From positions 1 to 64,000 of IMG/VR virus record IMGVR_UViG_3300042349_000834: a stretch of 64,000 nucleotides of DNA; one strand, given 5' to 3'. Positions 9,731-43,903 of the stretch are shown in pieces (the stretch's first letter is position 1; every line of letters starts with the position of its first letter). Source of the DNA: a virus. Made by a program: the position numbers and the translations under genes. The notes below the pieces were generated by a model that ran no database searches, was not told where the DNA came from, and worked only from the letters and a program-made list of their open reading frames with translations.

Positions 9731-9737
9731 ATACACC
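9731..9737 (-). promoter_or_regulatory. GGTGTAT element upstream of phoH
   Basis: GGTGTAT read on the minus strand, followed by TATTAAT. It lies in the 70-base gap before phoH and about 50 bases before its chosen start. It is one of eight copies in gene junctions of this window, all pointing at the downstream gene. Promoter function is inferred from repetition and placement. Confidence 0.5.
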
Positions 9738-9752
9738 ATTGTTAATTTAATA

Positions 9753-10193
9753 TTATTTACCGCTAGAACCGAAGCCACCGTTAGATCTTGAGGTTTCTCC
9801 TAAGCTATTGGTCTCTTGAAATGTAACAGAATGATAGGTTTCAAAAATAATTTGTGCTATCCTATCACCACGTGAGATTTTGAACATATTGTTTTGGTCT
9901 GTATTGTACAAAACCACCCCTATTTCTCCTCTATAGCCGGGATCTATAACTCCAGCCAAGACATCTATACCATTTTTAAATGCTAGTCCAGACCGTGGTG
10001 CTATGCGACCATAGATGCCACTGGGCATGGATAGGGAGATACCTGTGCGAACTAGTTTTCTGGTTAATGGGAAAATAACCATATCTTCTACAGAATACAG
10101 GTCAGCACCAGCGTCATCAATATTAGCTCTTGATGGTGCTTTAGCTAACTCGTTTAGTTTTACAAAATCAATATTCATACTTATAGTAGACAT
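9753..10193 (-). CDS. dut: dUTPase (dUTP diphosphatase)
   Basis: A 146-residue trimeric-type dUTPase with all five motifs in order: DDAGADLYS; APRSGLAFKNG; GVIDPGYRGEIGV; RGDRIAQIIF; and the C-terminal P-loop-like RSNGGFGSSGK. It hydrolyses dUTP to dUMP and diphosphate, keeping uracil out of DNA and feeding dTMP synthesis. The first ATG (10193) overlaps the ribonucleotide reductase stop by 13 bases. A second ATG at 10178 (MNIDFVKL, the usual family start) would leave a two-base gap and may be the real one. Confidence 0.93.
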   Translation of the reverse strand: MSTISMNIDFVKLNELAKAPSRANIDDAGADLYSVEDMVIFPLTRKLVRTGISLSMPSGIYGRIAPRSGLAFKNGIDVLAGVIDPGYRGEIGVVLYNTDQNNMFKISRGDRIAQIIFETYHSVTFQETNSLGETSRSNGGFGSSGK

Positions 10194-12373
10194 GCTCCAC
10201 CAGCACAGCTGATTTCTTCTATTCCTGCTGTATTGTCTTCTAGTTCTGATAATTGAGTGTAGTCAACCTTGGTAAACCCATTGAATAGATCACAATAGAT
10301 CTTCCAATTATATACATCTTTCATGCAATATGTTAAACGACGTAAATCAGAATCGAAGTATTTACTAGCAAAATTTGTCATTTTTGTCACAAACTTTAGC
10401 TTATTTGGATCGTCTGTTTCTTTAGTCTGATTTAGGCTGACATAATCACATGCTGCCCACAGATTATTATTAAAGGCATTCAAGCCTAATTCAATTAATC
10501 CAGAGCACCACAAGGCAGCATCTCCATATTCCTTTACTATTTCTCTGCTAGTATAAACAGTAGTAAAAGGAGCCTGTGGATAATCTTTATCTCCACTTTG
10601 TGGTATCAATGATATGCCAGCAAAATATTTTCTATTATCATAGATAAATCTAGCAACACTTTCCCATTCATCCGGCTTAACTGTTACTGTATTGCTAACG
10701 TTATGACTAAGATAGTCTTGTGTACATAGCGATCTATTCTTTCCAGAATATACCCAATTTTTTTGAGTATCTTTAACAACCTTTAGCATCTCTACTGCCG
10801 GTAATTGATTCTTTAACTTTGCACCATCGGGTACCTCAATAGGAAACTTAATAACCTCATCAGTATTGTTAGCAGACCATGATGACTTTTCACATGCCTG
10901 TGGGTTTAGTTTCTTAAAGTATTGATACGGTGCTTCTAAGACATTCGCTTGAACGTGCCTAATATATCTTTTAGCATGGTGCGGGTGTATTCCGGAGCTA
11001 GTACCAAGCATACTGCTGCTCGTTCCTTCTGGCTTTAAACAGGTTACTCTAGCTGCTTGATTAATACCTATAGCTTTAGCCATTAGCTTGTTTGTTTCAA
11101 CAGCGATCTTTGCTCCGTTCTTTAATGCTTTTTCTGTTAGCACCAAATCATGTTTTTCCATAGTTCCTGTTAATGAGACTCCCAACAAAGCTTCTCTCTC
11201 AAATATCTTACAACTAATTTCTCCAAGATAATCTAGCTTTGTAAATCCTGCTTGTAAAGTACCAATGATAGCTGCTGCTTTACATCTCTCATAAAAATCT
11301 TCTTCATCTTCTATTGATGAGCAGTTAATTGTGGAGAGATTACATCCTTGCCATCCACTCTTTCCGCTTTCTTCATCCACTGGCCACATACCGACTTCAA
11401 CGCAAGGATTAAATGTCATTTCTGTAGAATCACTCCAAATAAATCCTGGCTCTCCGAATTCTTTCACAGACTGCATTAAAGCGTCGAACTCTTCGTATGT
11501 TGTTGAATCTTTTATTAGAAGTGCTGAGTTATTGCTTCTTGCTCTTTGTGGATTGTCCATATACCAATTGCCCGTTTTAGCTTTAGCCATTTCTATATCG
11601 TCATGACTGAATAAAGCCAAAGAAGCACTTCGTCGAACACCACCAGATAAAACCGCGTCACTACTATGCATGATAATATCATAAGCATCAATTGGTCTAA
11701 GTTTCTTTTGACCATTATAGATACATCTATCTAGCAAAGTTCTGATTTTTTCTAGTCCGTTGGCTAGGGGTTCGTATCCAGGAGCTTTGCCTACTCCGGA
11801 TGCTAATGATGATCCTTTTGGTCTAATATTGGAATAATCAAACACTATGTGACTATTCTTATATTGTTTGAATTCTTCTACTGGCTTACTAAAGTAGGAA
11901 CTTAGTAATACTCCAAGAGAATTTGCCCAGCCTTCGATACTATCTTCAATTACGTATTTTACTGCTTGATCTTCTTTAACATCATGTTCTAGTGACGGTA
12001 GCTTGGATACATGATGCTTTTGAACACTGAATCCAGTACCGGATCCACAGAGCAGTAACCAAAAACATTCTTGAAAAAATCTTAAGCGATCACAGTATGA
12101 ACTTGTGCAATTATAGATTTTCGCATGTCTCTTTAGGATAGGGTCTCCTCCAAACTGTAGTGCTCTTTGTGATCCAAGCACTTTTCTTTTTAGCATTAGT
12201 TCATATGCCCAGTCGATGTCGTTTGTAATGCCCTTGTCAGCATAAAAGGAATGCATCATATTCTTAACACGATCTACTGCTTCTTTCCATGTTTCTCTGC
12301 GATTTTTATCTTCAATCCAACGAGCATATTTGCTAACGAAAGTATAGTTCTGTAATTCTTGCAGAGCTGACAT
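10181..12373 (-). CDS. nrdJ: Adenosylcobalamin-dependent ribonucleoside-triphosphate reductase (class II)
   Basis: A 730-residue protein, the length of monomeric class II reductases of the Lactobacillus leichmannii type. Visible elements are the N-terminal Cys segment (IYNCTSSYCDRLRF), GSGTGFSVQ, the central NPCVEVG active-site motif with the thiyl Cys and Glu, GWQGCNLSTIN with the partner Cys, and a C-terminal CAGGAC pair (C-x4-C) for re-reduction. It makes dNTPs from NTPs using coenzyme B12 and needs no oxygen or NrdB subunit. The host must supply or import cobalamin. The start overlaps the small gene upstream as TAATG. Confidence 0.95.
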   Translation of the reverse strand: MSALQELQNYTFVSKYARWIEDKNRRETWKEAVDRVKNMMHSFYADKGITNDIDWAYELMLKRKVLGSQRALQFGGDPILKRHAKIYNCTSSYCDRLRFFQECFWLLLCGSGTGFSVQKHHVSKLPSLEHDVKEDQAVKYVIEDSIEGWANSLGVLLSSYFSKPVEEFKQYKNSHIVFDYSNIRPKGSSLASGVGKAPGYEPLANGLEKIRTLLDRCIYNGQKKLRPIDAYDIIMHSSDAVLSGGVRRSASLALFSHDDIEMAKAKTGNWYMDNPQRARSNNSALLIKDSTTYEEFDALMQSVKEFGEPGFIWSDSTEMTFNPCVEVGMWPVDEESGKSGWQGCNLSTINCSSIEDEEDFYERCKAAAIIGTLQAGFTKLDYLGEISCKIFEREALLGVSLTGTMEKHDLVLTEKALKNGAKIAVETNKLMAKAIGINQAARVTCLKPEGTSSSMLGTSSGIHPHHAKRYIRHVQANVLEAPYQYFKKLNPQACEKSSWSANNTDEVIKFPIEVPDGAKLKNQLPAVEMLKVVKDTQKNWVYSGKNRSLCTQDYLSHNVSNTVTVKPDEWESVARFIYDNRKYFAGISLIPQSGDKDYPQAPFTTVYTSREIVKEYGDAALWCSGLIELGLNAFNNNLWAACDYVSLNQTKETDDPNKLKFVTKMTNFASKYFDSDLRRLTYCMKDVYNWKIYCDLFNGFTKVDYTQLSELEDNTAGIEEISCAGGACLL

Positions 12374-12513
12374 TATGATCTCCTAGTGTTTAGAATCGCC
12401 GCTAATCCGATTATAACAGCGGCATGAAAAGAATAATTTATAGTGTCAATATTTGTATTAAAAAATCGTTGATACATATATACGACTGTTGAAATGTAAA
12501 ATGCTATAGACAT
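12373..12513 (-). CDS. Small membrane protein, 46 residues
   Basis: An ORF filling the gap between the dCMP deaminase and the class II reductase. It starts at the ATG at 12513 and its TAA shares a base with the reductase ATG (TAATG), a classic coupling arrangement. The reductase SD-like AGGAG lies inside its last codons. There are two hydrophobic stretches, SIAFYISTVVYMY at the start and HAAVIIGLAAIL near the end, so one or two membrane passes are plausible. No known family. The coupling supports it as a real gene, but it could also be a leader. Confidence 0.5.
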   Translation of the reverse strand: MSIAFYISTVVYMYQRFFNTNIDTINYSFHAAVIIGLAAILNTRRS

Positions 12514-12515
12514 GA

Positions 12516-12980
12516 TTATACACCGTTAATATTTTTAATCCAAGATAAATCTGGTCTTATCCTAACTATCTTAATGCCGCTCATTTGTACGAATAAATCA
12601 AATCTTTTTTTTGCATCTTCATCAAATAAGTGAGTACCATGATCATCGGACATTACCACAGAAGTAACACCTTCTTGCCATAAAGCCATAATACAATCAT
12701 TACAACTTTGACCAGTTACGTACGCTATACCATTATCTGGCCTAACAACACAATTACTTAAAGCATTTCGTTCTGCATGAATCATCCACGGATATTTTTC
12801 TGGGCGAGTCTTTGGAAGGTCATCATCATCTAATCCTCGGGGGTAACCATTGTAGCCCACGCCAAGAATTCTATTATTCTGATCTGTGATTACGCATCCG
12901 TGTTGGGTGTGAATATCATGACTTCTTTGAGACACCACCTTTGACAAACCTAAAAAATAATCGGTCCAGATCGGTCTCAT
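12516..12980 (-). CDS. dCMP deaminase
   Basis: A 154-residue zinc-dependent deaminase of the ComEB/T4 Cd type. The zinc site is IHAERNALSNC (His and catalytic Glu) and GQSCNDCIMALWQ (the Cys pair). QHGCVITDQNNRILGVGYNG near the start is the substrate-side motif. It converts dCMP to dUMP, which with dUTPase feeds dTMP supply. It is the first gene after the promoter at 13039-13067 and leads the nucleotide operon. No thymidylate synthase is present in the window. Confidence 0.9.
   Translation of the reverse strand: MRPIWTDYFLGLSKVVSQRSHDIHTQHGCVITDQNNRILGVGYNGYPRGLDDDDLPKTRPEKYPWMIHAERNALSNCVVRPDNGIAYVTGQSCNDCIMALWQEGVTSVVMSDDHGTHLFDEDAKKRFDLFVQMSGIKIVRIRPDLSWIKNINGV
12518..12524 (-). promoter_or_regulatory. 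GGTGTAT element upstream of the small ORF and nrdJ
   Basis: GGTGTATAAT read on the minus strand. It overlaps the last codons and stop of the dCMP deaminase and ends five bases before the ATG of the 46-residue ORF. It contains a TATAAT-like string. Because it overlaps coding sequence, chance is harder to exclude here than at the other seven sites. Confidence 0.35.
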
Positions 12981-13009
12981 TATTTGTTACTATTTCCGAA
13001 GACATTTTT

Positions 13010-13030
13010 CTTGATGCCACACGCATCAAG
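13010..13030 (-). promoter_or_regulatory. Hairpin in the dCMP deaminase leader
   Basis: A perfect 8-bp inverted repeat, CTTGATGC and GCATCAAG, around a 5-base loop. It begins one or two bases after the start expected from the promoter at 13039-13067 and ends about 30 bases before the deaminase ATG. No T-run follows on either strand, so it is not a terminator. It could stabilise the 5' end of the mRNA or be an operator. Confidence 0.55.
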
Positions 13031-13038
13031 AGTAGGTT

Positions 13039-13067
13039 ATTATACGCAGAGGCCATGGATGTAGCAA
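13039..13067 (-). promoter_or_regulatory. Sigma70-like promoter for the nucleotide/replication operon
   Basis: On the minus strand TTGCTA (13062-13067) and TATAAT (13039-13044) are separated by exactly 17 bases. It lies in the 96-base gap before the dCMP deaminase and would transcribe the long leftward nucleotide and replication block. The -10 is perfect and the -35 matches TTGACA at four of six positions, suggesting use of the host housekeeping polymerase early in infection. Confidence 0.6.
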
Positions 13068-13076
13068 CAGCTCTGT

Positions 13077-13904
13077 TTAATTTTCTTCTTTGCATCTGCG
13101 CTCTAGATTTTCATATAATTCATCATACTCTTTGAGCATATAGTGGTGTAACTGATGTGAGTTTTTACTATGTAAAAAAGATCCATAAAAATCAGAAATA
13201 CCATGAGAGGCTAATTGTTTATGTTCTAGTGTATTTGACGCATACTTGATATTTAATTGATTTAATATACAGAATATAAAAAATGCTCTTTCATGAACAT
13301 ATGCGCCAAAAGGATCGTGTCTGAATACTTCTGTCATTGGTAGAAACCAATCAACAAACTTATTAAGGATTTGTTTAGATAAGGTTATATTGGTTGTTGT
13401 TGGCCAAAATTTATACTGATGTTTGTTAGCGTCTACAAATTGTTGTAAGTCAATATTGTAAATTTTTTTAAGAGATATTGCTAACCATGGGGTGCTTTTA
13501 TAGAATACATAATGGTCCGTGAGTGTTTTATTGTATCCTATAATATAATTATTCTTGTTGTATTTGTTAATTAAACCAGCATTTATTTGATGAAATTTGG
13601 TATCAAGTTCTATATCATATTCTAATAAGCAAATATTCTTATTTTGATAAAGACTGTTTTTGACAACAGCATACCAAGCGACAAAGCTACATAGATAAGG
13701 ATATTCTTCTAAATTATATTTTAGATTTCTACAAATAATAGTTTCGTGATCTAAGTGATTCAGCTTACTTGTTTTTCCATTTCCAACAAATAAGAACTTA
13801 TAACTAGGAAGATTGCGAAAAATATTTTTATTTATTTGCTGATTAATAATATCTTGGTCATGACAAACTATAAAATAATCTATCTTACTACCAATAGGAT
13901 CCAT
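13077..13904 (-). CDS. Putative glycosyltransferase-like protein
   Basis: I take the start as the ATG at 13904 (MDPIGSKIDYFIVCH), since the longer frame from 13964 lies deep inside the upstream gene. The product has about 275 residues. YFIVCHDQDI near the start and NICLLEYDIELD in the middle (an acidic D-x-E in place of D-x-D) resemble GT-A sugar transferases. YVHERAFFIFCIL is typical of polysaccharide-gene proteins that name a host response. The exact family is not recognised. It is the last gene of the first glycan block. Confidence 0.55.
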   Translation of the reverse strand: MDPIGSKIDYFIVCHDQDIINQQINKNIFRNLPSYKFLFVGNGKTSKLNHLDHETIICRNLKYNLEEYPYLCSFVAWYAVVKNSLYQNKNICLLEYDIELDTKFHQINAGLINKYNKNNYIIGYNKTLTDHYVFYKSTPWLAISLKKIYNIDLQQFVDANKHQYKFWPTTTNITLSKQILNKFVDWFLPMTEVFRHDPFGAYVHERAFFIFCILNQLNIKYASNTLEHKQLASHGISDFYGSFLHSKNSHQLHHYMLKEYDELYENLERRCKEEN

Positions 13905-14733
13905 TTTCAATATTCCTATATGACTCTGGAGTTTCTTCTGGGAGTGGCCTAGTCCAGTATTCATTAATAAAATTTTTAGAGCCGTGTCTATTATATTGCG
14001 CCCATCTATTTCCCATTATACCAAATAATAATTGGAGTGCCCCGCCCATATGAATAGCTGTTTTATTCAAATGTTTTTTAATGTAGGCTCCTAACGGAAG
14101 ACCAAATGCCCCACACCCAATCAGAGCAACATCAAAATCTATATTATTGATTTCATCTTGCATTGTATATAAACTATCAAACCAGTCATAATTCATATTA
14201 TTACCGATATTTTGAATGGCTTTCATTGTTATTAATTCGAATTCTGGTAAAATATTAGTACCAACAAACAAATGCTGTCTATTCTTATAGTTCTGCTCTA
14301 TGCTTTTTTGAAATGGATGTATAACTAAGACTCTTTTGTCTTTTAATGCTTCGGTCCAGGGATTTTGAGGAAAATGATATGGTTCTAATCCCCATAAATA
14401 AAAGGGTATAGCATTAGGACAATAGTTAGCAATAAGACGACTATAATTAGGGGTACAACCAATGAAAGCTACGAGGTCTAATAACCCAATACAGTCGCTA
14501 TATTTTTTACTAAAAGCATAAAGATAATCCTGATCATTAGGATAAATCCCAGCAGGAGACCGAGAGTTTTGCACCATCTGATTGGTACAGGCTTTATTGT
14601 CTAGCAACATAGTACATACAATATCGCACTCTGTTACACCGGATCTGCCAACAAAAAATATTTCTTTTTTCTCAAGACGTTCTTTAATTAAATTATTGCC
14701 CTCTATTTCTCTTAAAATATTGATAGTAGTCAT
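13888..14733 (-). CDS. Glycan-cluster protein, possibly GT-D-type glycosyltransferase
   Basis: A 281-residue soluble protein. The start contains FFVGRSGVTECDIV and the C-terminal part ALIGCGAFGLPLGAYIKK, then AIHMGGALQLLFGI and MGNRW. This pattern, a Gly-x-Gly strand followed by a His/Gly/Gln segment, is seen in DUF1792/GT-D-like proteins of capsule clusters. I cannot name substrate or product. It is coupled by 4 bases to the gene upstream and overlaps the one downstream by 17. Confidence 0.5.
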   Translation of the reverse strand: MTTINILREIEGNNLIKERLEKKEIFFVGRSGVTECDIVCTMLLDNKACTNQMVQNSRSPAGIYPNDQDYLYAFSKKYSDCIGLLDLVAFIGCTPNYSRLIANYCPNAIPFYLWGLEPYHFPQNPWTEALKDKRVLVIHPFQKSIEQNYKNRQHLFVGTNILPEFELITMKAIQNIGNNMNYDWFDSLYTMQDEINNIDFDVALIGCGAFGLPLGAYIKKHLNKTAIHMGGALQLLFGIMGNRWAQYNRHGSKNFINEYWTRPLPEETPESYRNIENGSYW

Positions 14734-17455: not shown

Positions 17456-18286
17456 CTATACTTCCTTGTAGTTTTTAATCACACCGTTACAGAAATCATT
17501 TAAATGCGTATTTATATCAAGAACTTTAGAGCCTCCGCCATAATGAACCCAATAAAAATCTTCCGGTGCGGAGTTTGGGTCATGTGGATTTTTCAAATAA
17601 AATAGGAGAGAAGAGTCAATACCTTTAACTATCAGATTACTATTTTTGGATGGAAGATATTCGGTCTTTATTAGTTTTGATAATGCAAAAGCCAATAATT
17701 CATCATATGAATTCCTATCCATTTGCTTTTCGTAGTTAATTAGCGATTGAGATTTTAGAGCATATACTACTCCCAAACACCATTTTTTTTGTTTTTCAAC
17801 AGACCATTCTATAAGTTCTTCAATAGTAAAACCCCAAACTTTGTAAAAGTCATTTGGATCCCATTGTTTTGTGCTTTTTATAATTTTTTCTTTAGCATCG
17901 AAGGAGCCACCGTCTCCGACCAACATTTCCGATTCTCCCAACATATCTTTTACAGCTGAGTTAAAATCAACTTTGCCAAACAAATACATGTCGGAATCAA
18001 CCCAGCAAATAATTTCTTCTGGATGTTCTTTTGCAACTTCAATGCACTTCGTAAATTTTTGCAAGTTTGAACTTGTTCTCCAAACTTTTACTCCTATATT
18101 ATTCAAAAAATCCAAGTATTTAGATTCTTGTATATCTGATATTACATAGATATCTTGTGGAAGCAGCCCGCCATTTTTAATCAGTGAAACAGCGTGGGCC
18201 GCCGCAAACATCGGATAACGATATTGTCTTTCAAAGGGCGGTTCTTGGATCCACCCGGTCCATCTTGCAATCATCACTATTTTCAT
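17456..18286 (-). CDS. Glycosyltransferase, GT-A-like
   Basis: A 276-residue protein with a GT-A layout: an N-terminal strand (MKIVMIARWTGWIQ), DIYVISDI, then IICWVDSDMYLFG, where Asp-Ser-Asp is the metal and nucleotide-sugar binding D-x-D. HYGGGSKVLD near the C terminus is a likely late active-site loop. No membrane segment. It sits in the first glycan block after a 112-base gap. Specificity cannot be predicted. Confidence 0.65.
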   Translation of the reverse strand: MKIVMIARWTGWIQEPPFERQYRYPMFAAAHAVSLIKNGGLLPQDIYVISDIQESKYLDFLNNIGVKVWRTSSNLQKFTKCIEVAKEHPEEIICWVDSDMYLFGKVDFNSAVKDMLGESEMLVGDGGSFDAKEKIIKSTKQWDPNDFYKVWGFTIEELIEWSVEKQKKWCLGVVYALKSQSLINYEKQMDRNSYDELLAFALSKLIKTEYLPSKNSNLIVKGIDSSLLFYLKNPHDPNSAPEDFYWVHYGGGSKVLDINTHLNDFCNGVIKNYKEV

Positions 18287-18295: not shown

Positions 18296-18409
18296 TTAAT
18301 TAAACCTATCAATTAGCCATTTTTCAGACCTACTATTACTTGAGGGACCAATTAAATTACACCTAACTAAACTCTTTTTTCCAGCACATATCTGTGTATT
18401 AGTTCTCAT
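18296..18409 (-). CDS. Small ORF of 37 residues, uncertain
   Basis: Starts at the ATG at 18409 inside the last codons of the upstream GT and fills the gap to the next GT. The product is basic with two Cys. The last part (SEKWLIDRFN) reads like the start of a GT2-type or GT4-type motif, so a remnant is possible. The DNA includes TTAGGTGTAAT, one base off the repeated GGTGTAT element. Coding status is doubtful. Confidence 0.25.
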   Translation of the reverse strand: MRTNTQICAGKKSLVRCNLIGPSSNSRSEKWLIDRFN

Positions 18410-35787: not shown

Positions 35788-35788
35788 T

Positions 35789-35971
35789 TTATTTTCTCCA
35801 TGGAAGAATATTGTCTACCAAATCTCTTAAAGGTTTTTTTGGTTTTGGCTTAACAGGACCATCTGGCTTATTCTCAGGAGAATTTTTATTAAATATCTTG
35901 ATAATAGCCAAAATAAAATTTAGAAGCATTTGTATTGCTCTATTTAGAGCTATTCTATCTATTAATCTCAT
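35789..35971 (-). CDS. Short protein with one membrane helix
   Basis: A 60-residue protein: an N-terminal amphipathic or membrane helix (AIQMLLNFILAIIKIF) followed by a Pro/Lys-rich linker (KPDGPVKPKPKKP) and a Trp-Arg end. It may anchor to the inner membrane with a basic tail. It is the first gene downstream of the GGTGTAT element at 36010. Confidence 0.6.
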   Translation of the reverse strand: MRLIDRIALNRAIQMLLNFILAIIKIFNKNSPENKPDGPVKPKPKKPLRDLVDNILPWRK

Positions 35972-36009: not shown

Positions 36010-36016
36010 ATACACC
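36010..36016 (-). promoter_or_regulatory. GGTGTAT element, leftward copy of the divergent pair
   Basis: GGTGTAT read on the minus strand, followed by TTATACTATAATCC, which holds a TATAAT-like block. It lies 39 bases before the gene at 35971 and is back-to-back with the plus-strand copy at 36041-36047. One of eight copies in the window, each facing the gene it precedes. Confidence 0.58.
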
Positions 36017-36040: not shown

Positions 36041-36047
36041 GGTGTAT
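36041..36047 (+). promoter_or_regulatory. GGTGTAT element, rightward copy of the divergent pair
   Basis: TTTTTTAGGTGTATCC on the plus strand, then TTTATTATGATACA. It is the only plus-strand copy, and it points toward the only plus-strand gene in this region (36119-36289), 72 bases before its ATG. Orientation matching the gene is the best single argument that the motif is a promoter element. Confidence 0.6.
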
Positions 36048-36118: not shown

Positions 36119-36289
36119 ATGACATATGATAATGATGGACCGATTTATAGTGTTTTGAATGGGAAACCGTGTTATTGCTGCAATTCGTGGGGGACCTGCG
36201 ACAATTTTGGAGAGGCTATGTGTGCCAATATTGATGGCATATGCTACGGCGACTTCGAAACTTGTTGGGCCAATTTAGGAGATTGCTAA
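36119..36289 (+). CDS. Cysteine-rich 56-residue protein on the opposite strand
   Basis: ATG at 36119 with AAAAAGG about eight bases before it. The 56-residue product has eight Cys (C18, C20, C21, C27, C35, C42, C49 and the final residue C56) and many Gly/Trp/Asn. No signal peptide is visible. It lies among minus-strand genes but has its own GGTGTAT element facing it. No known family. A compact metal-binding or disulfide-rich peptide is likely. Confidence 0.6.
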   Translation: MTYDNDGPIYSVLNGKPCYCCNSWGTCDNFGEAMCANIDGICYGDFETCWANLGDC

Positions 36290-37786: not shown

Positions 37787-38175
37787 GATACCTTATCCTC
37801 ATTTTGTTTACTGCATACATTGGGACTTAAATATGGGAACATCTGGTCTGCTACCTTAACAGCTTCAGAACATCCGCTCTGAACAGCAAGATCACGAGTT
37901 TGCTTCCATGAAACTACTAGCTTAAAAAATGTATCTTCTGAATCTGTTTTCTTTGGAACAACAACAGGAGAAACAGCAGGAACATTTACTACTGGGAGAG
38001 AAGTATTGTCTGTTGCTCCTCTGAGTTTTTCAATCATAGAACCTAATAGCTTTTGTACTGGATTAAGCTTATCCTTAAACATAACCCATAGTACGATACC
38101 AACACCAGCATATAGAGCCAAGTCCATTGTGCTCAATCTACTACTAAACTCTTGGAAACTTTCTGTAAAATTCAT
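37783..38175 (-). CDS. Small membrane protein
   Basis: A 130-residue protein with one membrane segment (LALYAGVGIVLWVMF, about residues 18-33) and a hydrophilic C-terminal part with two Cys. It overlaps the gene at 37295 by 4 bases. Part of the same envelope gene run. No family assigned. Confidence 0.62.
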   Translation of the reverse strand: MNFTESFQEFSSRLSTMDLALYAGVGIVLWVMFKDKLNPVQKLLGSMIEKLRGATDNTSLPVVNVPAVSPVVVPKKTDSEDTFFKLVVSWKQTRDLAVQSGCSEAVKVADQMFPYLSPNVCSKQNEDKVS

Positions 38176-38186
38176 TTTAGCCTCTC

Positions 38187-38612
38187 TTATTTATCTGAAA
38201 CTGATGGAGTTTTATCTACGTCCGGAGTAATTACAACACTTGGATCAATGAAAATGCCATTATTCCTAAAAGTAATGACAAAAGCATCAATTGAAGAACT
38301 TACTAAAAGCATTAACAATTGCTTGACATACTTCTGTATAATAGGCTGTAAAAGTTTTGGCACAAATGGAAAATTCACTAAAGTAAAAACTTGATCATAA
38401 AAGTTGCTAATCATAGTCATAGCAAGTGTTTTTTTATCAACCCCTTTAAGAGAGGGGTTATTATCTTCTATCTTTTGAATTACTTCGGCTGTAGCCAATT
38501 GCAATACGTTCCATGCTTGTGGCATTGCTACTGCTTTGGCGTTTTTAAGTATTTCTTTAGCTTTAGCTACTAAATTTCCAAGATCATTTACTGGCAGGTT
38601 TTGGTTTTCCAT
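38187..38612 (-). CDS. Hypothetical protein
   Basis: A 141-residue protein with a helical, Ala/Lys-rich first third and a hydrophobic stretch (LLQPIIQKYVKQLLMLLVSS) that may be membrane-associated. It ends in a Thr/Pro/Asp tail. It overlaps the holin-like gene by 29 bases. Function unknown. Confidence 0.6.
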   Translation of the reverse strand: MENQNLPVNDLGNLVAKAKEILKNAKAVAMPQAWNVLQLATAEVIQKIEDNNPSLKGVDKKTLAMTMISNFYDQVFTLVNFPFVPKLLQPIIQKYVKQLLMLLVSSSIDAFVITFRNNGIFIDPSVVITPDVDKTPSVSDK

Positions 38613-38916
38613 TTGTTTTTCTCTTTTTTCTTACTGTTGCTGGTTTGTCGTTCTTTTTGTTTGCTTCTTTTCTTTCTTCTGGAGTGGCTGTACTCCACCA
38701 AGTCTTTTTTAGGTCTGTTCTTCCTTTTACATATTTAAATAATACAGTTAGCTGTCCAATAATAAGGATTGTTGCTTCTAGACCTCTTGTAGTTTCTTGA
38801 ATTAGGTCTTCTTTTTGAGAATTTTCACCTATAAGACCCATAAGATATAATCCGCTAAAAATAAAACTAACTACTGTAAACCAAAATTCTGAACTTTTCC
38901 AACCGGGCTTAATCAT
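38584..38916 (-). CDS. Holin-like small membrane protein
   Basis: A 110-residue protein with PGWKSSEFWFTVVSFIFSG then LYLMGLIG, and a second hydrophobic stretch (LEATILIIGQLTVLFKYV), giving two membrane segments, followed by a highly basic tail. This layout (short, two-pass, charged C terminus, K-x-S-E-F-W start) matches many phage holins. It starts about 43 bases after the GGTGTAT element at 38959. A holin role is inferred. Confidence 0.55.
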   Translation of the reverse strand: MIKPGWKSSEFWFTVVSFIFSGLYLMGLIGENSQKEDLIQETTRGLEATILIIGQLTVLFKYVKGRTDLKKTWWSTATPEERKEANKKNDKPATVRKKRKTNGKPKPASK

Positions 38917-38958
38917 AATAGTTTATCTCCTATGTTAAAGACTGCTATTATATACTAT

Positions 38959-38965
38959 ATACACC
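38959..38965 (-). promoter_or_regulatory. GGTGTAT element upstream of the holin-like gene
   Basis: GGTGTATATAGTATATAAT on the minus strand, with a TATAAT block six bases after the core. It overlaps the end of the HNH gene and precedes the ATG at 38916 by about 43 bases, the same distance seen at the other sites. Confidence 0.55.
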
Positions 38966-38966
38966 G

Positions 38967-39653
38967 CTACAAGATCTTATCTGATTTAGCAATATTCAAA
39001 TCCCACCACAATGGCTGCATATTAGTATAGTGAAAACAAATTTTTTGCTGTTCTGGATCAGAAAGGTCAAAACTGGCGCATGGAATTATGTGGTCAATAT
39101 GCCATCCTTTGGGGCCATAGGCTTCCCAGTTCAGTCTAGGATCTTTATAAAATTGTGATTCCAGATGTTGTTTAAACTCTTCAATAGAACAACCCAATAA
39201 TTCTGTTGTAGCTTGAGATTTATAGTATCCTTTAATACTAGCTACTATTCTTTTTTGTAAAATACTTTTTAACCTATAAGAAAGATCAGAATAATATTTT
39301 TTATGCTGCCACTTATTTGCACTTTGTCTAATTTTTTCTTTATTATTAATCCTATAATTTTTCATATACTCGGGCTTATTTAGTCTTTGTTCTTTCTGAT
39401 AAGCTAGCTTAGTTTCTCGTTGTCTTGAATATCTTTGTTTATCTATTGTTTTATTATGCTCTTTATTTTTAATTTTATAGTCTTTAGATTTTTTTATTCT
39501 ATCTTCTCTATTTTTAATATATCTATTGTGCTGATTAGCCTTATCACAACTTTTACACTGAGCTAGTTTGCCATATTTACCAGTTTTACTATTCGGAAAA
39601 TCATTAAGTTGTTTTGTAATATTACATTGATTACATGTTTTGGTTTGAGTCAT
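38967..39653 (-). CDS. HNH endonuclease, probably free-standing homing type
   Basis: 228 residues from the ATG at 39653 (a GTG at 39662 would add three). The N-terminal zinc ribbon (CNQCNITK, then AQCKSCDKAN) is followed by a long Lys/Arg-rich helical linker and the HNH core WHIDHIIPCASF, with MQPLWWDLNIAKSDKI as the Asn/Lys end. This architecture recurs in mobile phage endonucleases. It lies between structural genes and does not break them. Confidence 0.72.
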   Translation of the reverse strand: MTQTKTCNQCNITKQLNDFPNSKTGKYGKLAQCKSCDKANQHNRYIKNREDRIKKSKDYKIKNKEHNKTIDKQRYSRQRETKLAYQKEQRLNKPEYMKNYRINNKEKIRQSANKWQHKKYYSDLSYRLKSILQKRIVASIKGYYKSQATTELLGCSIEEFKQHLESQFYKDPRLNWEAYGPKGWHIDHIIPCASFDLSDPEQQKICFHYTNMQPLWWDLNIAKSDKIL

Positions 39654-39671
39654 AATAAACACGGTTTAGTA

Positions 39672-40544
39672 TTATGCGTTTTGATCAACAAATCCGAAAC
39701 AAACCGTACAATAATTTTCACTAACAGTATAATTGAAAGTTACAGTAGTTACAGTTCCATCTATTCGAATTATATTATATCCTTCTTCTCCGGTAAACTG
39801 AGAATATTGTGTAGCATTTACTGGATTTTGATATGTTGTAAGTGTTTCCCATATTGGAGTAAATGATGCTGATACTTGTACAGGAACTGGGGTACCTCCT
39901 TGACCAACGCTAGCAAATGCAACCAACGCGTCGGTAACAGGTTGACTAAAAGTTGCAGTAAAAATACCAGATTGAGTATTCTTAATTTGAGTTCCACTAA
40001 GTGGTACTCCGTAAGCTTCGGGGAAGGTTGTGCCACCAACCATACCATCGTGGGCATCCATACCTCCGCCAGTTTGTGTTATTGAGATTGTGATATTGTT
40101 TTGACCAATTCCAGAAGCGGAGGTTGAAGTAACAGAGCTGATATTCATCCACTGAAACCCAGAACTACCAAAACTACAAAACTTCTCACCAGAATAAGGA
40201 GCTGGCCAGTTTACTAACCAAGGATAGCTTGCATAACTATATGCTCTCGTAATCTCCCCTTCTGCTCCAATATAAAGCCATACTCCTGTCTCGTATCGGA
40301 CAGTTTCGTCTCCATAGGTATAGGTCTCACGACCATAAGGAGCATATCCAATAGGAGCAAGAGTTCTGTCACCAGAAACCCATCCTATCATTTTGACACT
40401 AGCAACTGAATCTGTACAACTTTCTGATGTACTTCCAAATACTAGATTCTCGCCAAGGAATATTTTAGAAACACTATTATCTCCTAATTTAATAGAAGTT
40501 ATGTTAGAGTTACTTAAAAATATATCACTATTTACTGTTGGCAT
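39672..40544 (-). CDS. Fibre or tail-type structural protein
   Basis: A 290-residue protein. The start SKIFLGENLVFGS after ITSIKLGDNSV is a short beta-structural head often found on phage fibre and baseplate proteins. The remaining Gly/Thr/Ser-rich stretch is typical beta-sandwich or fibre sequence with few charges. A receptor-binding or decoration role is likely, but no fold is identified. Confidence 0.6.
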   Translation of the reverse strand: MPTVNSDIFLSNSNITSIKLGDNSVSKIFLGENLVFGSTSESCTDSVASVKMIGWVSGDRTLAPIGYAPYGRETYTYGDETVRYETGVWLYIGAEGEITRAYSYASYPWLVNWPAPYSGEKFCSFGSSGFQWMNISSVTSTSASGIGQNNITISITQTGGGMDAHDGMVGGTTFPEAYGVPLSGTQIKNTQSGIFTATFSQPVTDALVAFASVGQGGTPVPVQVSASFTPIWETLTTYQNPVNATQYSQFTGEEGYNIIRIDGTVTTVTFNYTVSENYCTVCFGFVDQNA

Positions 40545-40556
40545 ACAAATTTATCC

Positions 40557-40817
40557 TTAGCCATTAACTATGTATAGTGTATTAGTATCTTTTGTAGCAA
40601 GAGCATCGTAGTTGCTTTGAGAAATACTAATCATATTTGTTATACGAATAGAATTATTAACTAAGCTAGTATTGCTTTGAACTAAACCAGAATGAAGAAC
40701 AGATACTGGGACTTTTTTTGTTAAAGCAGACCCTGATGGATCGTCCATAATTAAAAATATATCATCACTAGTCAGAGCACTAGCTGCTGGAAATTCATTA
40801 ATACGTTGTATACTCAT
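40557..40817 (-). CDS. Small fibre/baseplate-associated protein
   Basis: An 86-residue protein with FLIMDDPSG near the start and the C-terminal ISQSNYDALATKDTNTLYIV, a motif (Tyr-Asp-Ala-Leu then T-L-Y-x-V) common at the ends of phage structural and fibre-tip proteins. Placed between two other small structural genes. Coded as one unit with the neighbours. Confidence 0.58.
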   Translation of the reverse strand: MSIQRINEFPAASALTSDDIFLIMDDPSGSALTKKVPVSVLHSGLVQSNTSLVNNSIRITNMISISQSNYDALATKDTNTLYIVNG

Positions 40818-41030
40818 TTAACCACCTATTACTGTTTGGTCGCCGACTAATTGAACAAAAATACCATTATAGAATCTATTATCATATTTTGTTTCAATAT
40901 CACTAATTGTTGGAGTGTTTTTAACATACGTGTCGATTGTTGAGTATTCTCCGGTAACTGTTGTTGTAACAACGGTTGTTCCGTTTTTTATTTGATTAGC
41001 ACTAATTGCTTTATTTATATCGTTTGCCAT
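40818..41030 (-). CDS. Small structural-type protein
   Basis: A 70-residue protein, polar and Thr/Asn-rich with beta-prone runs (TVVTTTVTGEYSTIDTY). It starts three bases after the stop of the upstream gene and touches the next one with no gap. No motif is recognised. The neighbours suggest a virion component. Confidence 0.5.
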   Translation of the reverse strand: MANDINKAISANQIKNGTTVVTTTVTGEYSTIDTYVKNTPTISDIETKYDNRFYNGIFVQLVGDQTVIGG

Positions 41031-41033
41031 AAA

Positions 41034-41351
41034 TTACCTTTCTATTCTGTCTTCTAAAGTTTCTAAAGTTTTGCCAAGCATTGCTATTTGAATTTTCAGT
41101 TCTGTCATAACTTCTGTATTTCTTTGAAGAGCCAGCGCGAAAGCTGCTTGACTTTCTTTGTTAGAAGCTAACCTTTCCATAATAAATTGTTTATCATGAA
41201 GGTATGGAGATTGTGTTTCTATCATAACCAAAACCTCTGATTTAGTTGCCATATTTCTACCAATAGCCACCCAAAATCCAACCATTGTTACTATAATTCC
41301 AATACTTGTTGTGGCTATGTTCTCCCAGAAATGAATAATGGTTTCAGACAT
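41034..41351 (-). CDS. Membrane-anchored coiled-coil protein
   Basis: A 105-residue protein with one N-terminal membrane segment (ATTSIGIIVTMVGFWVAIG) and a C-terminal coiled coil (MTELKIQIAMLGKTLETLED). It begins about 50 bases after the GGTGTAT element at 41401 and follows a terminator. The layout would suit a tail-associated or lysis-accessory protein. Family not named. Confidence 0.62.
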   Translation of the reverse strand: MSETIIHFWENIATTSIGIIVTMVGFWVAIGRNMATKSEVLVMIETQSPYLHDKQFIMERLASNKESQAAFALALQRNTEVMTELKIQIAMLGKTLETLEDRIER

Positions 41352-41400
41352 TATGGAAGCCTTTTATAAGATTTTTAGAAAGTGTTATTCTTTAGATATA

Positions 41401-41407
41401 ATACACC
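41401..41407 (-). promoter_or_regulatory. GGTGTAT element after a terminator
   Basis: TTTTTTATAGGTGTATTATATC on the minus strand. It follows directly on the T-run of the terminator at 41411-41443 and precedes the gene starting at 41351 by about 50 bases. It would start a new transcript just after the previous one ends. Confidence 0.6.
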
Positions 41408-41410
41408 TAT

Positions 41411-41443
41411 AAAAAAAGAACCAGAAAGATGATTCCTGGTTCT
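41411..41443 (-). terminator. Rho-independent terminator for the 41472-42014 gene
   Basis: On the minus strand AGAACCAGGAA pairs with TTTCTGGTTCT around a 5-base loop (11 bp, one G-U pair), followed at once by a T-run of at least five. It lies about 30 bases after the stop of the structural gene and just before the GGTGTAT element at 41401. Strong and correctly oriented. Confidence 0.88.
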
Positions 41444-41471
41444 CTTCTTATTGGTAGAATTTAATTAACTA

Positions 41472-42014
41472 TTAGCCATTTTTAGCTGGATAGTTTTTTG
41501 CAATAGCAACAGGAGCGCCACTCTTGAATCTCATAGAACCGGGAACGCTTCTGGTGGGACTAGCAGCATTATCTGTACCTGGGGTTTCTGTAACAGCTGT
41601 TGGGGCAGTTGTGAACCTACCTGTGTAAAGACTAAAGTAGCCAGCTCTGATAGCGGTTGCGGTGCCGGGTGATCTGTAGCTTTCTCTCTTGTTAATGCTT
41701 CTTAATTGACCAGGAACATTAGCTGTAGTTGATAAAGCACTACTGGCAACTCCACCAAGCTCTGAGGTTACTTTGGCAGTTATGGGCTTGACATGATCGT
41801 GGGCGATAGTTCCTTCAGAAATAGCCTTGTTTGTGTAATCTCCATCAATAACTGTTGAAGCGAAAACACCAACATTTACTTGTCCTAGTGAACTATTCTC
41901 TAAGACAGAGGATACTGTGCCGACTCTTTTAGCTGTACCGTGATTATTATTTGTAGAGCTACCACTCCAGTATGTGCCTGTTGAGGCTGCTCCACCTTGT
42001 TGAATTGTAGCCAT
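41472..42014 (-). CDS. Probable abundant virion structural protein
   Basis: About 180 residues from the ATG at 42014, which has GGAG nine bases before it. An upstream ATG at 42029 is weaker. The protein is Ser/Thr/Ala/Gly-rich with beta-prone, low-charge composition (GGAASTGTYWSGSSTNN). It forms its own transcription unit: a GGTGTAT element about 57 bases upstream and a strong terminator after it. That arrangement suggests a highly expressed virion component such as a decoration protein, which is inference. Confidence 0.65.
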   Translation of the reverse strand: MATIQQGGAASTGTYWSGSSTNNNHGTAKRVGTVSSVLENSSLGQVNVGVFASTVIDGDYTNKAISEGTIAHDHVKPITAKVTSELGGVASSALSTTANVPGQLRSINKRESYRSPGTATAIRAGYFSLYTGRFTTAPTAVTETPGTDNAASPTRSVPGSMRFKSGAPVAIAKNYPAKNG

Positions 42015-42070
42015 TTTATAAAACTCCATGAAGATTTAAGGAAAGAAACAAGTATATACTTATTATTCGT

Positions 42071-42077
42071 ATACACC
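42071..42077 (-). promoter_or_regulatory. GGTGTAT element upstream of the isolated structural gene
   Basis: TTTTTAGGTGTATACG on the minus strand, in the 60-base gap after the DeoC-like gene and about 57 bases before the ATG at 42014. With the terminator at 41411 it bounds a one-gene transcript. Confidence 0.6.
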
Positions 42078-42090
42078 TAAAAACAGAGAA

Positions 42091-42732
42091 TTAGCTATTT
42101 ATTAGCTGTAAACCGTTTAGGGAATTGATTCTTAAACCGTATAATTGGTTATTTTTAACCATTTTTAGATGATTACTATTCCACAAATTACCATTACAGA
42201 TAATATTGATATTTGGAACTTTCTTATTAATTAGAGCAGAAGCTATGATATTGTCGCCAATATCGTCTAAAGAGTATCCAGTTGAGGGATAGATTGTTTT
42301 AACATTAAAGTCATATAAGATTTGGGCAACTTTATAGAGCAGCTCGTAGGAGTATTGCCTATATTCTAAAACGTATCTTAGTTCAACATTTAGGGAAGAA
42401 CATAGATTAGTTAATTGTTTAATGTCATCCCTAAACTTATCATACTTCCTGTTGCACAATAGCTGTGCTGGGCAAACTGCCTCAATTATATCAACATTAT
42501 TTTTTAAACAAAAATCAACTACTGATAGTCTGGATTTTATATCTAACACACCCATTGGATAATCTATCGGGCAAGAAATCTTTGCAGCATTGTTTACTAA
42601 AGACTTTACAAGTCTGGCATATGGCGGAAGTACAGATATTGTCTGCACATTGTGTTTTAAAGCTTCTGTTAAGTTGCCTTGAATTTCGGCATCATTAGAA
42701 GCGATATCATAATATGAATATTCTAATAGCAT
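42091..42732 (-). CDS. DeoC-like (deoxyribose-phosphate aldolase family) protein
   Basis: A 213-residue TIM-barrel-like protein. ISVLPPYARLVKSLVNN, CPIDYPMGVLDIKSRL and NNVDIIEAVCPAQLL follow the early strands of DeoC, and YVLEYRQYSYELLYKVAQIL then VKTIYPSTGY mirror the middle and the K-T-S-T-G end. The usual Schiff-base Lys position is held by a Ser/Tyr-rich sequence (IYPSTGY), so catalysis is not certain. DeoC splits deoxyribose 5-phosphate. It overlaps the protease gene by one base. Confidence 0.62.
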   Translation of the reverse strand: MLLEYSYYDIASNDAEIQGNLTEALKHNVQTISVLPPYARLVKSLVNNAAKISCPIDYPMGVLDIKSRLSVVDFCLKNNVDIIEAVCPAQLLCNRKYDKFRDDIKQLTNLCSSLNVELRYVLEYRQYSYELLYKVAQILYDFNVKTIYPSTGYSLDDIGDNIIASALINKKVPNINIICNGNLWNSNHLKMVKNNQLYGLRINSLNGLQLINS

Positions 42733-43403
42733 TATTTTTTAAGTGAGTCTATATTGGGATATTTTTTAGTGCCAAGAATACCATCGGCAAAGCCGTAATA
42801 TACTGCTTCTTCAGCCGTTAATATCCAATCGCATTTATTAGCAAGTTGTGAGACTATGTGTTTTTTTGCCATCATTTTTTTCCAATTTTTCTCTTTAGCT
42901 ATCATACTATTCATACACCTGTCAGTAAAAATATCAACCATCTTATCACACTCGTTTTCGTTCCATCTAATGCCAGCCGCAGCAGCTTTGCTGTGTTCCC
43001 CATCCATACTAAATGACCCATAATGAATCATAACATGTGTATTTGGCATCAATATTCTAAGGTCGGCAGCTTGTAATAAAACACTACTAGAAGATTCTGC
43101 TTTAGCATAAGCGAGGATGATAACTTTAGCTTTTGATGCCCTGACAGCATCATACATACCTAGGCAGTCTTGCCAGTCTCCTCCTGGTAAATGCATATGA
43201 ACTAAAATTGGTTCTAGAGATAATAGGTTTAAGTACCTGAGATTTTTTTCAAGTACTATAGCAGACCTATAGTCAACACCACCTTCTTCACTATCTCCTA
43301 AATATGAATGTAGATATATTTCTCTGTTTTTTGTATCTATATTATATGAGTGTATTGATTGTAATTCGCTTTCAAGTTCAGTAAATGATTTGGCTGTTGA
43401 CAT
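42732..43403 (-). CDS. ClpP-like serine protease, probable prohead protease
   Basis: A 223-residue protein with the ClpP fold order: LEPILVHMHLPGGDWQDCLG (oxyanion Gly strand), AKAESSSSVLLQAA with the catalytic Ser, and NTHVMIHYGSFS with the catalytic His. A later Asp in the C-terminal helix completes the triad. ClpP-like proteases serve as prohead proteases in many tailed phages. Location next to structural genes fits. A scaffold-processing role is inferred. Confidence 0.78.
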   Translation of the reverse strand: MSTAKSFTELESELQSIHSYNIDTKNREIYLHSYLGDSEEGGVDYRSAIVLEKNLRYLNLLSLEPILVHMHLPGGDWQDCLGMYDAVRASKAKVIILAYAKAESSSSVLLQAADLRILMPNTHVMIHYGSFSMDGEHSKAAAAGIRWNENECDKMVDIFTDRCMNSMIAKEKNWKKMMAKKHIVSQLANKCDWILTAEEAVYYGFADGILGTKKYPNIDSLKK

Positions 43404-43405
43404 TG

Positions 43406-43837
43406 TTATGATAGCTCCGAGTATACTCTCTTATTTATATCTCTCATTACCGAAGAATCATCAAAAGCTTTACCAACAGCAATTCGGAATCTGTATCTAG
43501 TAAAAATATCTAGGGTTTCAACCCCATCGGTTTTTTCGATAACATCAGCAACTTTATGAGTAATATCAAAGTTAGTATGCCCAATCCAAAAATTAAAAAT
43601 CTTTCCACTCATAGTATTATCAGTGACTGGTATAATGCCCATTGGCGTAGCAATAACTTTTACTCTTTGTGTTGTATTAATTATTTTATTCTCTTGCTCC
43701 TCATCATTAATGTTTTCAGTAGTACCATCTGATTCTTGTTCTTCATAATCTGCAAGATATGGATCATGCTCCAGCTCTTCTGCGTCATCAGATCCAAATG
43801 GATCAAGCCACTTTTGCCATGAGATAAGATTGATCAT
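43406..43837 (-). CDS. Hypothetical phage protein
   Basis: A 143-residue protein. The first half is strongly acidic and probably disordered. The second half has a compact alpha/beta core: KVIATPMGIIPVTD then FNFWIGHTNFDITHKVADVI and LDIFTRYRFRIAVGKAF. It begins about 50 bases after the GGTGTAT element at 43889. A conserved phage structural or assembly protein is likely but unnamed. Confidence 0.65.
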   Translation of the reverse strand: MINLISWQKWLDPFGSDDAEELEHDPYLADYEEQESDGTTENINDEEQENKIINTTQRVKVIATPMGIIPVTDNTMSGKIFNFWIGHTNFDITHKVADVIEKTDGVETLDIFTRYRFRIAVGKAFDDSSVMRDINKRVYSELS

Positions 43838-43876
43838 ATAATTGATACTTTGTTTAAACTCTTATTTTTTTTAGAG

Positions 43877-43903
43877 ATACCATGTATAATACACCCATGG
43901 TAT
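43877..43903. promoter_or_regulatory. Inverted repeat enclosing a GGTGTAT element
   Basis: ATACCATG and CATGGTAT, a perfect 8-bp inverted repeat separated by 11 bases that contain the GGTGTATTATA element. No T-run follows on either strand, so it is not a terminator. The symmetry suggests an operator through which a dimeric regulator could block the promoter. Confidence 0.5.
43889..43895 (-). promoter_or_regulatory. GGTGTAT element inside an inverted repeat
   Basis: GGTGTATTATA on the minus strand, in the loop of the inverted repeat at 43877-43903 and about 52 bases before the ATG at 43837. Confidence 0.6.

Follow-up and report, generated by a model that had tools for sequence, protein, structure and literature searches.

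GGTGTAT as a probable single-element middle/late promoter core in an uncultivated jumbo phage clade

In an uncultivated jumbo phage and its distant relatives, the short word GGTGTAT probably marks the sites at which many middle and late genes are switched on, most likely with the assistance of a virus-made sigma factor. There is a good chance that the word is the core of a single-element middle/late promoter, read by the host RNA polymerase carrying a phage sigma. The window (the whole stretch of DNA analysed) comprises 64,000 nt of the IMG/VR record IMGVR_UViG_3300042349_000834, which totals 77,266 bases, and is part of a phage contig of about 244 kb (the parent contig, G002). A preliminary description of the window had proposed GGTGTAT as a candidate phage-specific promoter class, and this proposal is supported by enrichment upstream of genes, by anagram, T4 and phiEco32 controls, and by the existence of phage sigma-like genes.

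Enrichment upstream of genes

GGTGTAT is concentrated upstream of genes without being in excess genome-wide. The window holds 12 exact copies versus 6.2 +/- 2.3 in dinucleotide shuffles (at least 12 in 0 of 100 shuffles), including four beyond those previously described (10984+, 21066-, 26254- and 42913-), all of them intragenic. The whole record has 14 copies versus 12 of the reversed control word, showing no record-wide excess, and eight of the 14 fall in the upstream-sense noncoding DNA that makes up 2.5% of both strands (binomial 3.9e-10). Without the copy at 67640, which looks coding, the count is seven of 14 (binomial 1.8e-8). Since the motif was chosen after reading the sequence, a de novo ranking is the fairer test. 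Among words with at least four copies upstream of genes, GGTGTAT heads the 6-8-mer list for this record (two ORFs were taken out and one gene was put in by hand). It also heads the list for the 244 kb parent contig, where words with at least five copies were ranked.

The enrichment extends to related large contigs: the parent contig and eight others pass the genome-wide check put forward in the preliminary description. Among 7-mers with at least five upstream copies, GGTGTAT ranks first in G002, G005, G016 and G020, second in G006, G012 and G014, fifth in G019 and sixth in G018. Pooled over the nine contigs, there are 86 sense copies upstream of genes versus 14 antisense, with 7.0 expected; 140 anagrams of the same composition have a mean of 8.9, and TGGTGTA, second with 56 copies, is an overlapping word. 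Counts over whole contigs are not raised relative to the reversed word (32 vs 27 in G002, 32 vs 30 in G005), the total for all nine being 218 versus an anagram mean of 235. When 6-8-mers were ranked in untrimmed upstream DNA, GGTGTAT came second in G005 and fell outside the top 25 words in G006, whose list is taken up by GC-rich repeats. As controls, T4 (50 kb) gave ATAAATA as its top upstream word and phiEco32 gave AATGTAT in third place, GGTGTAT being absent upstream of genes in both. The phiEco32 AATGTATA sites precede five genes, which are among the six named in the accessible text of PMC4331800.

Sites in the window

All eight sites of the preliminary description are present at the coordinates and on the strands that it gave (Table 1). 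The near match that it placed at about 18350 exists as well, as GGTGTAA; the gene downstream of it has no ortholog among the nine contigs. The copy at 12518 is probably not a promoter, because it reads GGT GTA TAA at the C-terminus of a gene whose protein ends in NGV, and only 11 bases separate it from the next small ORF; it was rejected as a candidate on these grounds.

Table 1. Positions of the GGTGTAT elements and associated features in the window
Feature	Position	Strand	Remark
GGTGTAT element	9731..9737	-	precedes PhoH-like gene 8950-9717
GGTGTAT copy, doubtful	12518..12524	-	Gly-Val-stop codons of gene 12516-12980
GGTGTAA near match, doubtful	18357..18363	-	77 bases upstream of gene 17456-18286
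GGTGTAT element	36010..36016	-	45 bases ahead of small gene 35789-35971
GGTGTAT element, divergent	36041..36047	+	ahead of plus-strand gene, ATG 36119 or TTG 36077
GGTGTAT element	38959..38965	-	ahead of gene 38584-38916
GGTGTAT element	41401..41407	-	ahead of gene 41034-41351, immediately past terminator-like hairpin
Terminator-like hairpin and T-run	41408..41441	-	abuts 41401 element
GGTGTAT element	42071..42077	-	ahead of gene 41472-42029
Head maturation protease (ClpP-like)	42732..43403	-	phrog_94, E 2.5e-21; second gene behind 43889 element
GGTGTAT element	43889..43895	-	ahead of gene 43406-43837
Sigma A, phage sigma-like protein, 199 aa	44647..45246	-	regions 2 and 4

The element is conserved at some orthologous junctions, and many orthologs of element-bearing genes are without it. 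The 9731 junction keeps GGTGTAT in five of the eight contigs with the gene (cl55), and the 42071 junction (cl29) has GGTGTA[TA] in five of nine, with GGGGTAT-like words in G012, G014 and G019. At the 38959 junction (cl80), three of seven contigs have the element, including G005 and G006, the G005 copy falling within Gly-Val-stop codons. The 41401 element recurs in G016 (cl59, 2/8) and L006. Within the nine-contig set, the element at the 43889 junction (cl60) is found in G002 alone (1/8), and counterparts at a similar distance behind sigma A occur in L063-L065, L073, L083 and L084; the 43889 site lies inside a small inverted repeat. A gene start similar to that behind the 36010 element has GGTGTAT 33 bases ahead of it in L009, L010 and L011. 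For the plus-strand gene behind 36041, a gene with a like N-terminus (G002:219836-220669) has GGTGTAT 53 bases upstream, within another frame.

The annotated genes behind the element are mostly virion or packaging neighbours. Four late gene groups had no match in PDB profile searches at E 0.1, and the cl97 protein (518 aa) had none in PHROGs.

Architecture of the element

The consensus in the nine contigs is [GA]GTGTA[TA]; of the first-base variants only AGTGTAT is above expectation, and of the second-base variants none is. The 86 non-redundant aligned sites have no -35 column, and the upstream words enriched relative to 687 controls are AT-rich (AATTT, P 4e-6) rather than TTGACA. The first G lies 26-63 bases ahead of the start codon in 77 of the 86 sites. 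The spacing, originally reported as about 40-57 bases except at 12518 and 36041, depends on the start chosen: for 9731 it is 20 (TTG 9717) or 56 (TTG 9681), for 42071 it is 48 or 63, and for 36041 it is 36 or 78. The preceding T-rich run described as usual clearly abuts the element at 36041, 41401 and 42071, which is three of the eight sites. The AT-rich stretch said to follow holds for positions 8-15, which have no clear consensus; the TATAAT-like hexamer is not general. A terminator-like hairpin lies immediately upstream of nine of the 86 sites versus 15 of 713 controls (P 4e-4).

A pyrimidine-purine (Y-R) step at positions 15/16 occurs in 50 of the 86 pooled sites versus 12-29 at the other 32 positions scored. 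In 70 early promoters this measure, scored past the edge of the hexamer, peaks at the canonical start (42/70). The step is supported in six of the nine contigs. It is missing from the window phage's own sites (4 of 14 in G002) and is also weak in G020 (2/8) and G019 (2/5); a start position as fact was accordingly rejected for the window phage.

A second probable promoter class

TTGACA-N16-18-TAnnnT sequences form a second class, found ahead of the DNA ligase, SSB and UvdE genes and often carrying G, T or GTG just ahead of the TAnnnT hexamer. A TTGAC-type promoter also stands ahead of the small gene fronting the sigma B gene in seven of the seven contigs with sigma B (five by script, G002 and G020 by a looser scan); in G012, the gene ahead of sigma B bears both signals. 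The early and late cluster sets have one member in common versus 1.9 expected by chance, and genes bearing both signals number eight versus 12 expected; strict exclusion between the two gene sets was rejected, the overlap being not below chance. When both classes were masked, a search for a second phage-specific bipartite motif returned tRNA arms, GC-rich repeats, parts of early promoters and other words.

Candidate sigma factors

Which factor reads the element? Two sigma-like proteins come into question. Sigma A matches TIGR02937 over the cut-off, Sigma70_r4 (E 5.9e-11) and phrog_351 (3.4e-11), and the fold matches of its AlphaFold model, taken by domain, support regions 2 and 4 (the fold comparison lists first an archaeal factor, matched over region 4 alone, and then sigma chains). 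Sigma B, whose gene lies outside the window, matched only Sigma70_r2, below the cut-off, and has four invariant cysteines, a possible metal site. Foldseek gave no match for sigma B at E 0.001 or better, and a second fold comparison gave middling Z scores. T4 gp55 (7d7c_F; Z 7.6, rmsd 7.4, 111 aligned) is listed among the fold matches of sigma B and is missing from those of sigma A, which excludes nothing. Both proteins weakly match phrog_1740, the phiEco32 gp36 family (sigma A, E 3.5e-7, residues 37-194; sigma B, E 2.6e-5, residues 22-93; gp36 itself, 1.9e-45), and hhalign gave weak alignments of the two to gp36, to gp55 and to one another. In the phage collection no full-length relative of either was found: one search matched seven records, over the C-terminal part only, and the other found none.

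Sigma B is the favoured reader, because the phiEco32 sigma without region 4 pairs with single-element promoters. That sigma A reads GGTGTAT instead, giving positive feedback from a site ahead of its own gene, is rather unlikely. Sigma A matches phrog_1740 more fully and is present in nine of nine contigs (cl32) and at 68 loci; its gene belongs to the virion block and, in most contigs, has a GGTGTAT site upstream. The element is present at cl34, a few genes ahead of sigma A, in six of nine contigs, G002 not among them. Against this reading, region 4 normally accompanies a -35 element, and sigma A has a strong region 4, yet no -35 element is seen at GGTGTAT sites. The 7-11 sigma, which has region 4, uses bipartite promoters in the accessible text of PMC8948821. 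Across contigs, GGTGTAT and the sigma proteins vary too little to tie one to the other, and four far relatives with neither sigma have too little upstream DNA to be informative (0 copies versus 0.17 expected).

On sequence grounds, a promoter function, a start position, a factor and a time of expression can be proposed for the element. Host-type TTGACA-N16-18-TAnnnT promoters would drive early genes, including the small operon with sigma B. Host core RNA polymerase with a phage sigma, presumably sigma B and alternatively sigma A, would recognise [G/A]GTGTAT in the -10 region with no need of a -35 element, the AT-rich stretch past the element would melt, and transcription would start some 15 bases past the first G. 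It is conceivable, if doubtful, that sigma B founds a new region-2-only phage sigma family with four invariant cysteines and a G-rich -10 specificity, and that sigma A, produced behind those promoters, contributes another step, so that this widespread clade would have a three-tier sigma cascade. Read in this way, the two promoter classes would let the timing of expression (early TTGACA, middle/late GGTGTAT) be read from sequence in a clade represented here by metagenome contigs alone, and two candidate factors are at hand that can be examined in vitro with no need for a cultured host. Another natural specificity built on a TGTAT core would also bear on how sigma region 2 reads a -10 element without a -35.

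Comparison with known systems

The closest known system is that of the sigma gp36 promoters of the E. coli phage phiEco32, from which GGTGTAT is distinct in sequence. Both have one conserved element, no -35 and a common TGTAT core, and in phiEco32 the element (tAATGTAtA) lies 41-67 bases ahead of the start codon at five sites, comparable to the range found here. The gp36 promoters serve middle and late genes, the early promoters being of the host sigma70 type, according to the accessible parts of PMC4281155 and PMC8948821. The gp36 protein is without region 4, as is, seemingly, sigma B. It is expressed from a promoter of host type; the TTGAC-type promoter ahead of the sigma B operon may serve that purpose here. 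On the other hand, the first two positions are GG rather than AA: AATGTAT occurs here 12 times versus 14.2 expected and AATGTATA twice upstream versus 5.2, so the phiEco32 consensus is not followed. Copies are many and dispersed versus six, and there are two sigma-like proteins versus one. The gp36-type start lies 6-8 bases past the element; the pooled Y-R step here is at 15/16 and is absent from the window phage's sites.

T4 late promoters (gp55, TATAAATA) resemble the present ones in having a short single element in the -10 region, and a phage sigma on the host core polymerase serves virion genes there, in the accessible text of PMC1524935. Unlike T4, however, TATAAATA occurs here 10 times upstream of genes versus 14.2 expected, and neither sigma matches phrog_234, the home of T4 gp55, at E 0.01 (gp55 matches at 2.9e-69). 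Phage 7-11 has bipartite late promoters (GTAAtg-(16)-aCTA), whereas one element is found here; its sigma, gp47, is a distant relative of gp36 acting on late genes, as far as the available portion of PMC8948821 goes. For the same phage, the single-genome motif prediction in the accessible text of PMC4331800 differs from the experimentally mapped promoters (PMC8948821), so computed motifs can mislead.

Jumbo phages of the phiKZ/AR9 type likewise combine a jumbo genome with a promoter class of their own, but use their own multisubunit polymerases, whereas sigma-like genes are found here. A phage-made polymerase as the reader of GGTGTAT is disfavoured: RNA_pol_Rpb2_6 (PF00562) had no match in five records while controls matched, although divergent subunits could escape and the records may be fragments. 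The single-subunit polymerase profile PF00940 matched neither these five records nor any control genome. A search of the phage collection by DNA gave no match, and a literature search on the word GGTGTAT found, judged by titles, no phage-promoter paper. In a host search via sigma A, 49 of the 50 loci match from residue 85 or later; the remaining one is a 48% sigma A on a 5.5 kb contig binned as Chitinophagia, and no host is named on this basis.

Other readings of the element

Could the host primary sigma by itself use the GGTGTAT sites as promoters of the extended -10 type, without any phage factor? This seems improbable. The G, T or GTG ahead of TAnnnT in the early promoters would allow GGTG-TAT to be a variant -10 for the same polymerase. 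However, the host extended -10 (TGnTATAAT) is not matched, since TG abuts TA without the one-base gap and no AAT is preferred after TAT; the lack of a -35, the restriction of first- and second-base variants, and the predominance of virion and packaging neighbours behind the element also speak against it.

It is quite improbable that GGTGTAT, instead of being a promoter, serves as an operator bound by a phage transcription regulator or acts at the RNA level in the 5' leader. The word is short, highly conserved and close to start codons, and the inverted repeat at 43889 would suit such a site, but GGTGTAT directly follows terminators more often than controls do, AT-rich DNA comes after it, and six of nine contigs show a start-like Y-R step at a constant offset. 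Moreover, at the closest spacing the ribosome site comes within about 15 bases of GGTGTAT, too near for another promoter to fit in downstream of the element.

Finally, chance or a coding by-product, likely for 12518, is refuted for the class as a whole: conserved copies do overlap reading frames (12518, cl34, cl88, cl97 and others) and there is no genome-wide excess, but the upstream enrichment over expectation and anagrams in nine contigs and a codon test speak against it. In the last part of the portal gene, ahead of cl97, GGTGTAT is kept unchanged within a reading frame, Val being GTG in seven of seven contigs where GTG makes up 11.8% of Val codons. The codon before this GTG is ATG in five of the seven, which adds little because ATG is the only Met codon.

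Distribution of the GGTGTAT element

Judged by its sequence and conservation, GGTGTAT defines a real class of upstream elements. These are very probably promoters, and it is likely that a phage sigma factor reads them; we place the class among the single-element middle/late promoters that depend on phage sigma factors. The gp36 system of phiEco32 works in a similar way and has the TGTAT core in common with it, but the GGTGTAT sites fall outside the gp36 consensus.

The window contains 12 copies of GGTGTAT and the full 77,266-base record 14. The preliminary description listed eight junction sites, each aimed at the next gene. All eight are present in the sequence, and seven lie in noncoding DNA with that orientation. 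The copy at 12518, on the other hand, is the Gly-Val-stop end of the gene at 12516-12980 and is unlikely to act as a promoter. The four additional copies in the window are all within genes.

Is the element unusually frequent? The record has 14 copies against 12 of the reversed word, and the 243,821-base phage contig G002, in which the window corresponds to positions 81164-145163 with 4 mismatches, has 32 against 27, so that neither shows an excess. The total of 218 in nine contigs is likewise ordinary against an anagram mean of 235. GGTGTAT is unusual in where its copies lie, not in their abundance. In noncoding DNA upstream of genes, no other 6-8-mer is as strongly over-represented, either in the record (8 versus 0.35 expected) or in G002 (11 versus 1.0). 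The genome-wide upstream enrichment that the preliminary description proposed to look for was thus found in G002, and then in eight other large contigs chosen by kinship of a structural protein or of the sigma-like protein sigma A (44-77% identical to the window's). When 7-mers are ranked over the final 200 bases upstream of genes, GGTGTAT takes a place between first and sixth in each of the nine contigs. With untrimmed upstream DNA it came second in G005 and fell outside the 25 top words in G006, where GC-rich repeats took up these places. Pooled over the nine contigs, 86 upstream copies are sense and 14 antisense, with 7.0 expected; the 140 anagrams, GGTGTAT included, average 8.9. Few variants exceed expectation: AGTGTAT (22 versus 9.7), GGTGTAA (19 versus 6.2), GGGGTAT (12 versus 4.6) and, less markedly, GGCGTAT (6 versus 2.9).

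The same script was run on two control phages: ATAAATA came top in 50 kb of T4, and in phiEco32 AATGTAT came third, with AATGTATA before five genes; GGTGTAT was found upstream of genes in neither. These five are among the six genes given in PMC4331800. GGTTCGA is likewise repeated before genes in each of the nine contigs, and a tRNA-like stretch, GGTTCGATTCC, lies in noncoding DNA at record 76334-76495.

Conservation and gene classes

At the junction before the window gene 41472-42029, GGTGTA[TA] is kept in five of nine contigs with differing flanks. The element is retained before PhoH in five of eight contigs, and in six of eight it lies at most 80 bases upstream of ortholog cluster cl43. Ahead of cl97 it shares sequence with the 3' end of the portal gene (phrog_2739, 6.9e-9 in G002). 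The valine there is encoded by GTG in 7/7 cases, although GTG makes up 11.8% of valine codons, and the preceding codon (ATG five times, ACG and TCG once each) always ends in G. Such fixed codons point to selection on the DNA. Some orthologs are without the element: of eight contigs with cl60 (site 43889), G002 alone has it in front of this gene, though closer relatives have a copy at a similar place.

The second signal that recurs upstream of genes combines TTGACA with a -10 hexamer; it stands in front of the ortholog groups for DNA ligase, SSB, UvdE and a glycosylase-like protein. GGTGTAT precedes groups that adjoin portal, terminase (phrog_2, 6.2e-19) and a gene with a weak match to a major-head family (phrog_2522, 0.0032), as well as PhoH and the head protease operon of the window. 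For most late-group proteins no family match was found, and their reading as virion genes rests partly on position. The late element is found in two or more contigs for 23 of the 347 ortholog clusters, and the early one for 29. With a loose early pattern, one cluster is shared (1.9 expected) and 8 of 2,333 genes carry both (12 expected), counts that do not demonstrate exclusion.

In G002 158-212 kb and the other large contigs, CGATA often lies within the spacer of early promoters (38/91), and AAGT-N17-CGAT pairs occur 22 times in upstream DNA versus 1.05 expected, which suggests an additional regulator site. GC-rich inverted repeats (ACTTACG...CGTAAGT) recur between early-region genes (G002 197-216 kb, G012 133-152 kb). 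The products of window 36119-36289 and G002:219836-220669, each with GGTGTAT upstream, have similar N-termini (NGPIYSVLxGKP). Proteins carrying long Thr-Pro repeats are encoded at L001:7911-11139 (record 67911-71139). A DNA polymerase III alpha-like frame at L056:571-1458 (contig G008) appears interrupted, presumably, from its motif, by an intein-type element.

Anatomy of the sites

The 86 non-redundant sites have no -35 column; the motif stands alone in AT-rich flanks, with G and C scarce at positions 8-15 and more G after. In 77 of them, 26-63 bases separate the first G from the start codon. Where the spacing is tightest, the ribosome site is no more than about 15 bases away, so transcription would need to begin near the element. 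Of the 86 sites, 50 have a pyrimidine-purine step at positions 15/16, compared with 12 to 29 at other positions of 8-40. Applied to early promoters, this measure peaks beyond the hexamer edge at the canonical start (42/70). By contig (92 sites, near-duplicates included), the step is clear in G005 (11/15), G012 (9/15), G014 (8/11), G018 (5/7), G016 (5/8) and G006 (5/9), and not in G019 (2/5), G020 (2/8) or the window's own phage, G002 (4/14). Since it is missing there, we infer the start position from the relatives only. A terminator-like hairpin directly precedes 9 of the 86 sites, including 41401, versus 15 of 713 control upstream regions.

Candidate sigma factors

Which factor would read the element? 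A sigma70-ECF match over the cut-off was found in all five large records first searched, and two sigma-like proteins, both matching phrog_1740 (the phiEco32 gp36 family), are candidates.

Sigma-like genes considered as readers of GGTGTAT
Gene	Position	Match
Sigma A	window 44647-45246 (-)	sigma70-ECF over cut-off, clear region 4
Sigma B	G002:227096-227773	region 2 only; Sigma70_r2 E 1.5e-4, below cut-off

PMC8948821 attributes the single-element promoters of gp36 to the absence of region 4 from this protein; the 7-11 sigma, which possesses that region, works with two elements. On this ground sigma B is the likelier reader, with perhaps an even chance. It had no Foldseek match at E 0.001; a second fold comparison gave the SigE N-terminal domain (Z 8.8, rmsd 2.0, 72 aligned), which is middling for a helical domain. 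Its cysteines 98, 101, 115 and 124 are conserved without exception across 25 sequences. It is present in seven of the nine contigs and absent from G016 and G018, which may be fragments. A small gene overlaps its start, and the script places a TTGAC-type promoter before that gene in G005, G006, G014, G019 and G012, the last with a GGTGTA site as well. In G002 and G020, a looser scan of upstream DNA finds one some 190 bases ahead of sigma B.

Sigma A comes next, as a possible but rather unlikely reader. Its model has a mean pLDDT of 79.9, and Foldseek matches it to sigma factors (best E 2.9e-5), which superpose domain by domain only (whole-length rmsd 16-20).

An early-type promoter also stands before the gene of a 94 aa protein (G002:165236-165520) that has a weak sigma region 4 match, below the cut-off (E 0.0057). 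A ferritin-like protein is encoded near sigma A, at window 45746-46339. Upstream of terminase, the 3' end of sigma B overlaps the gene of a conserved protein (L055:2070-2891; G002:227734-228555) with weak transcription-regulator matches.
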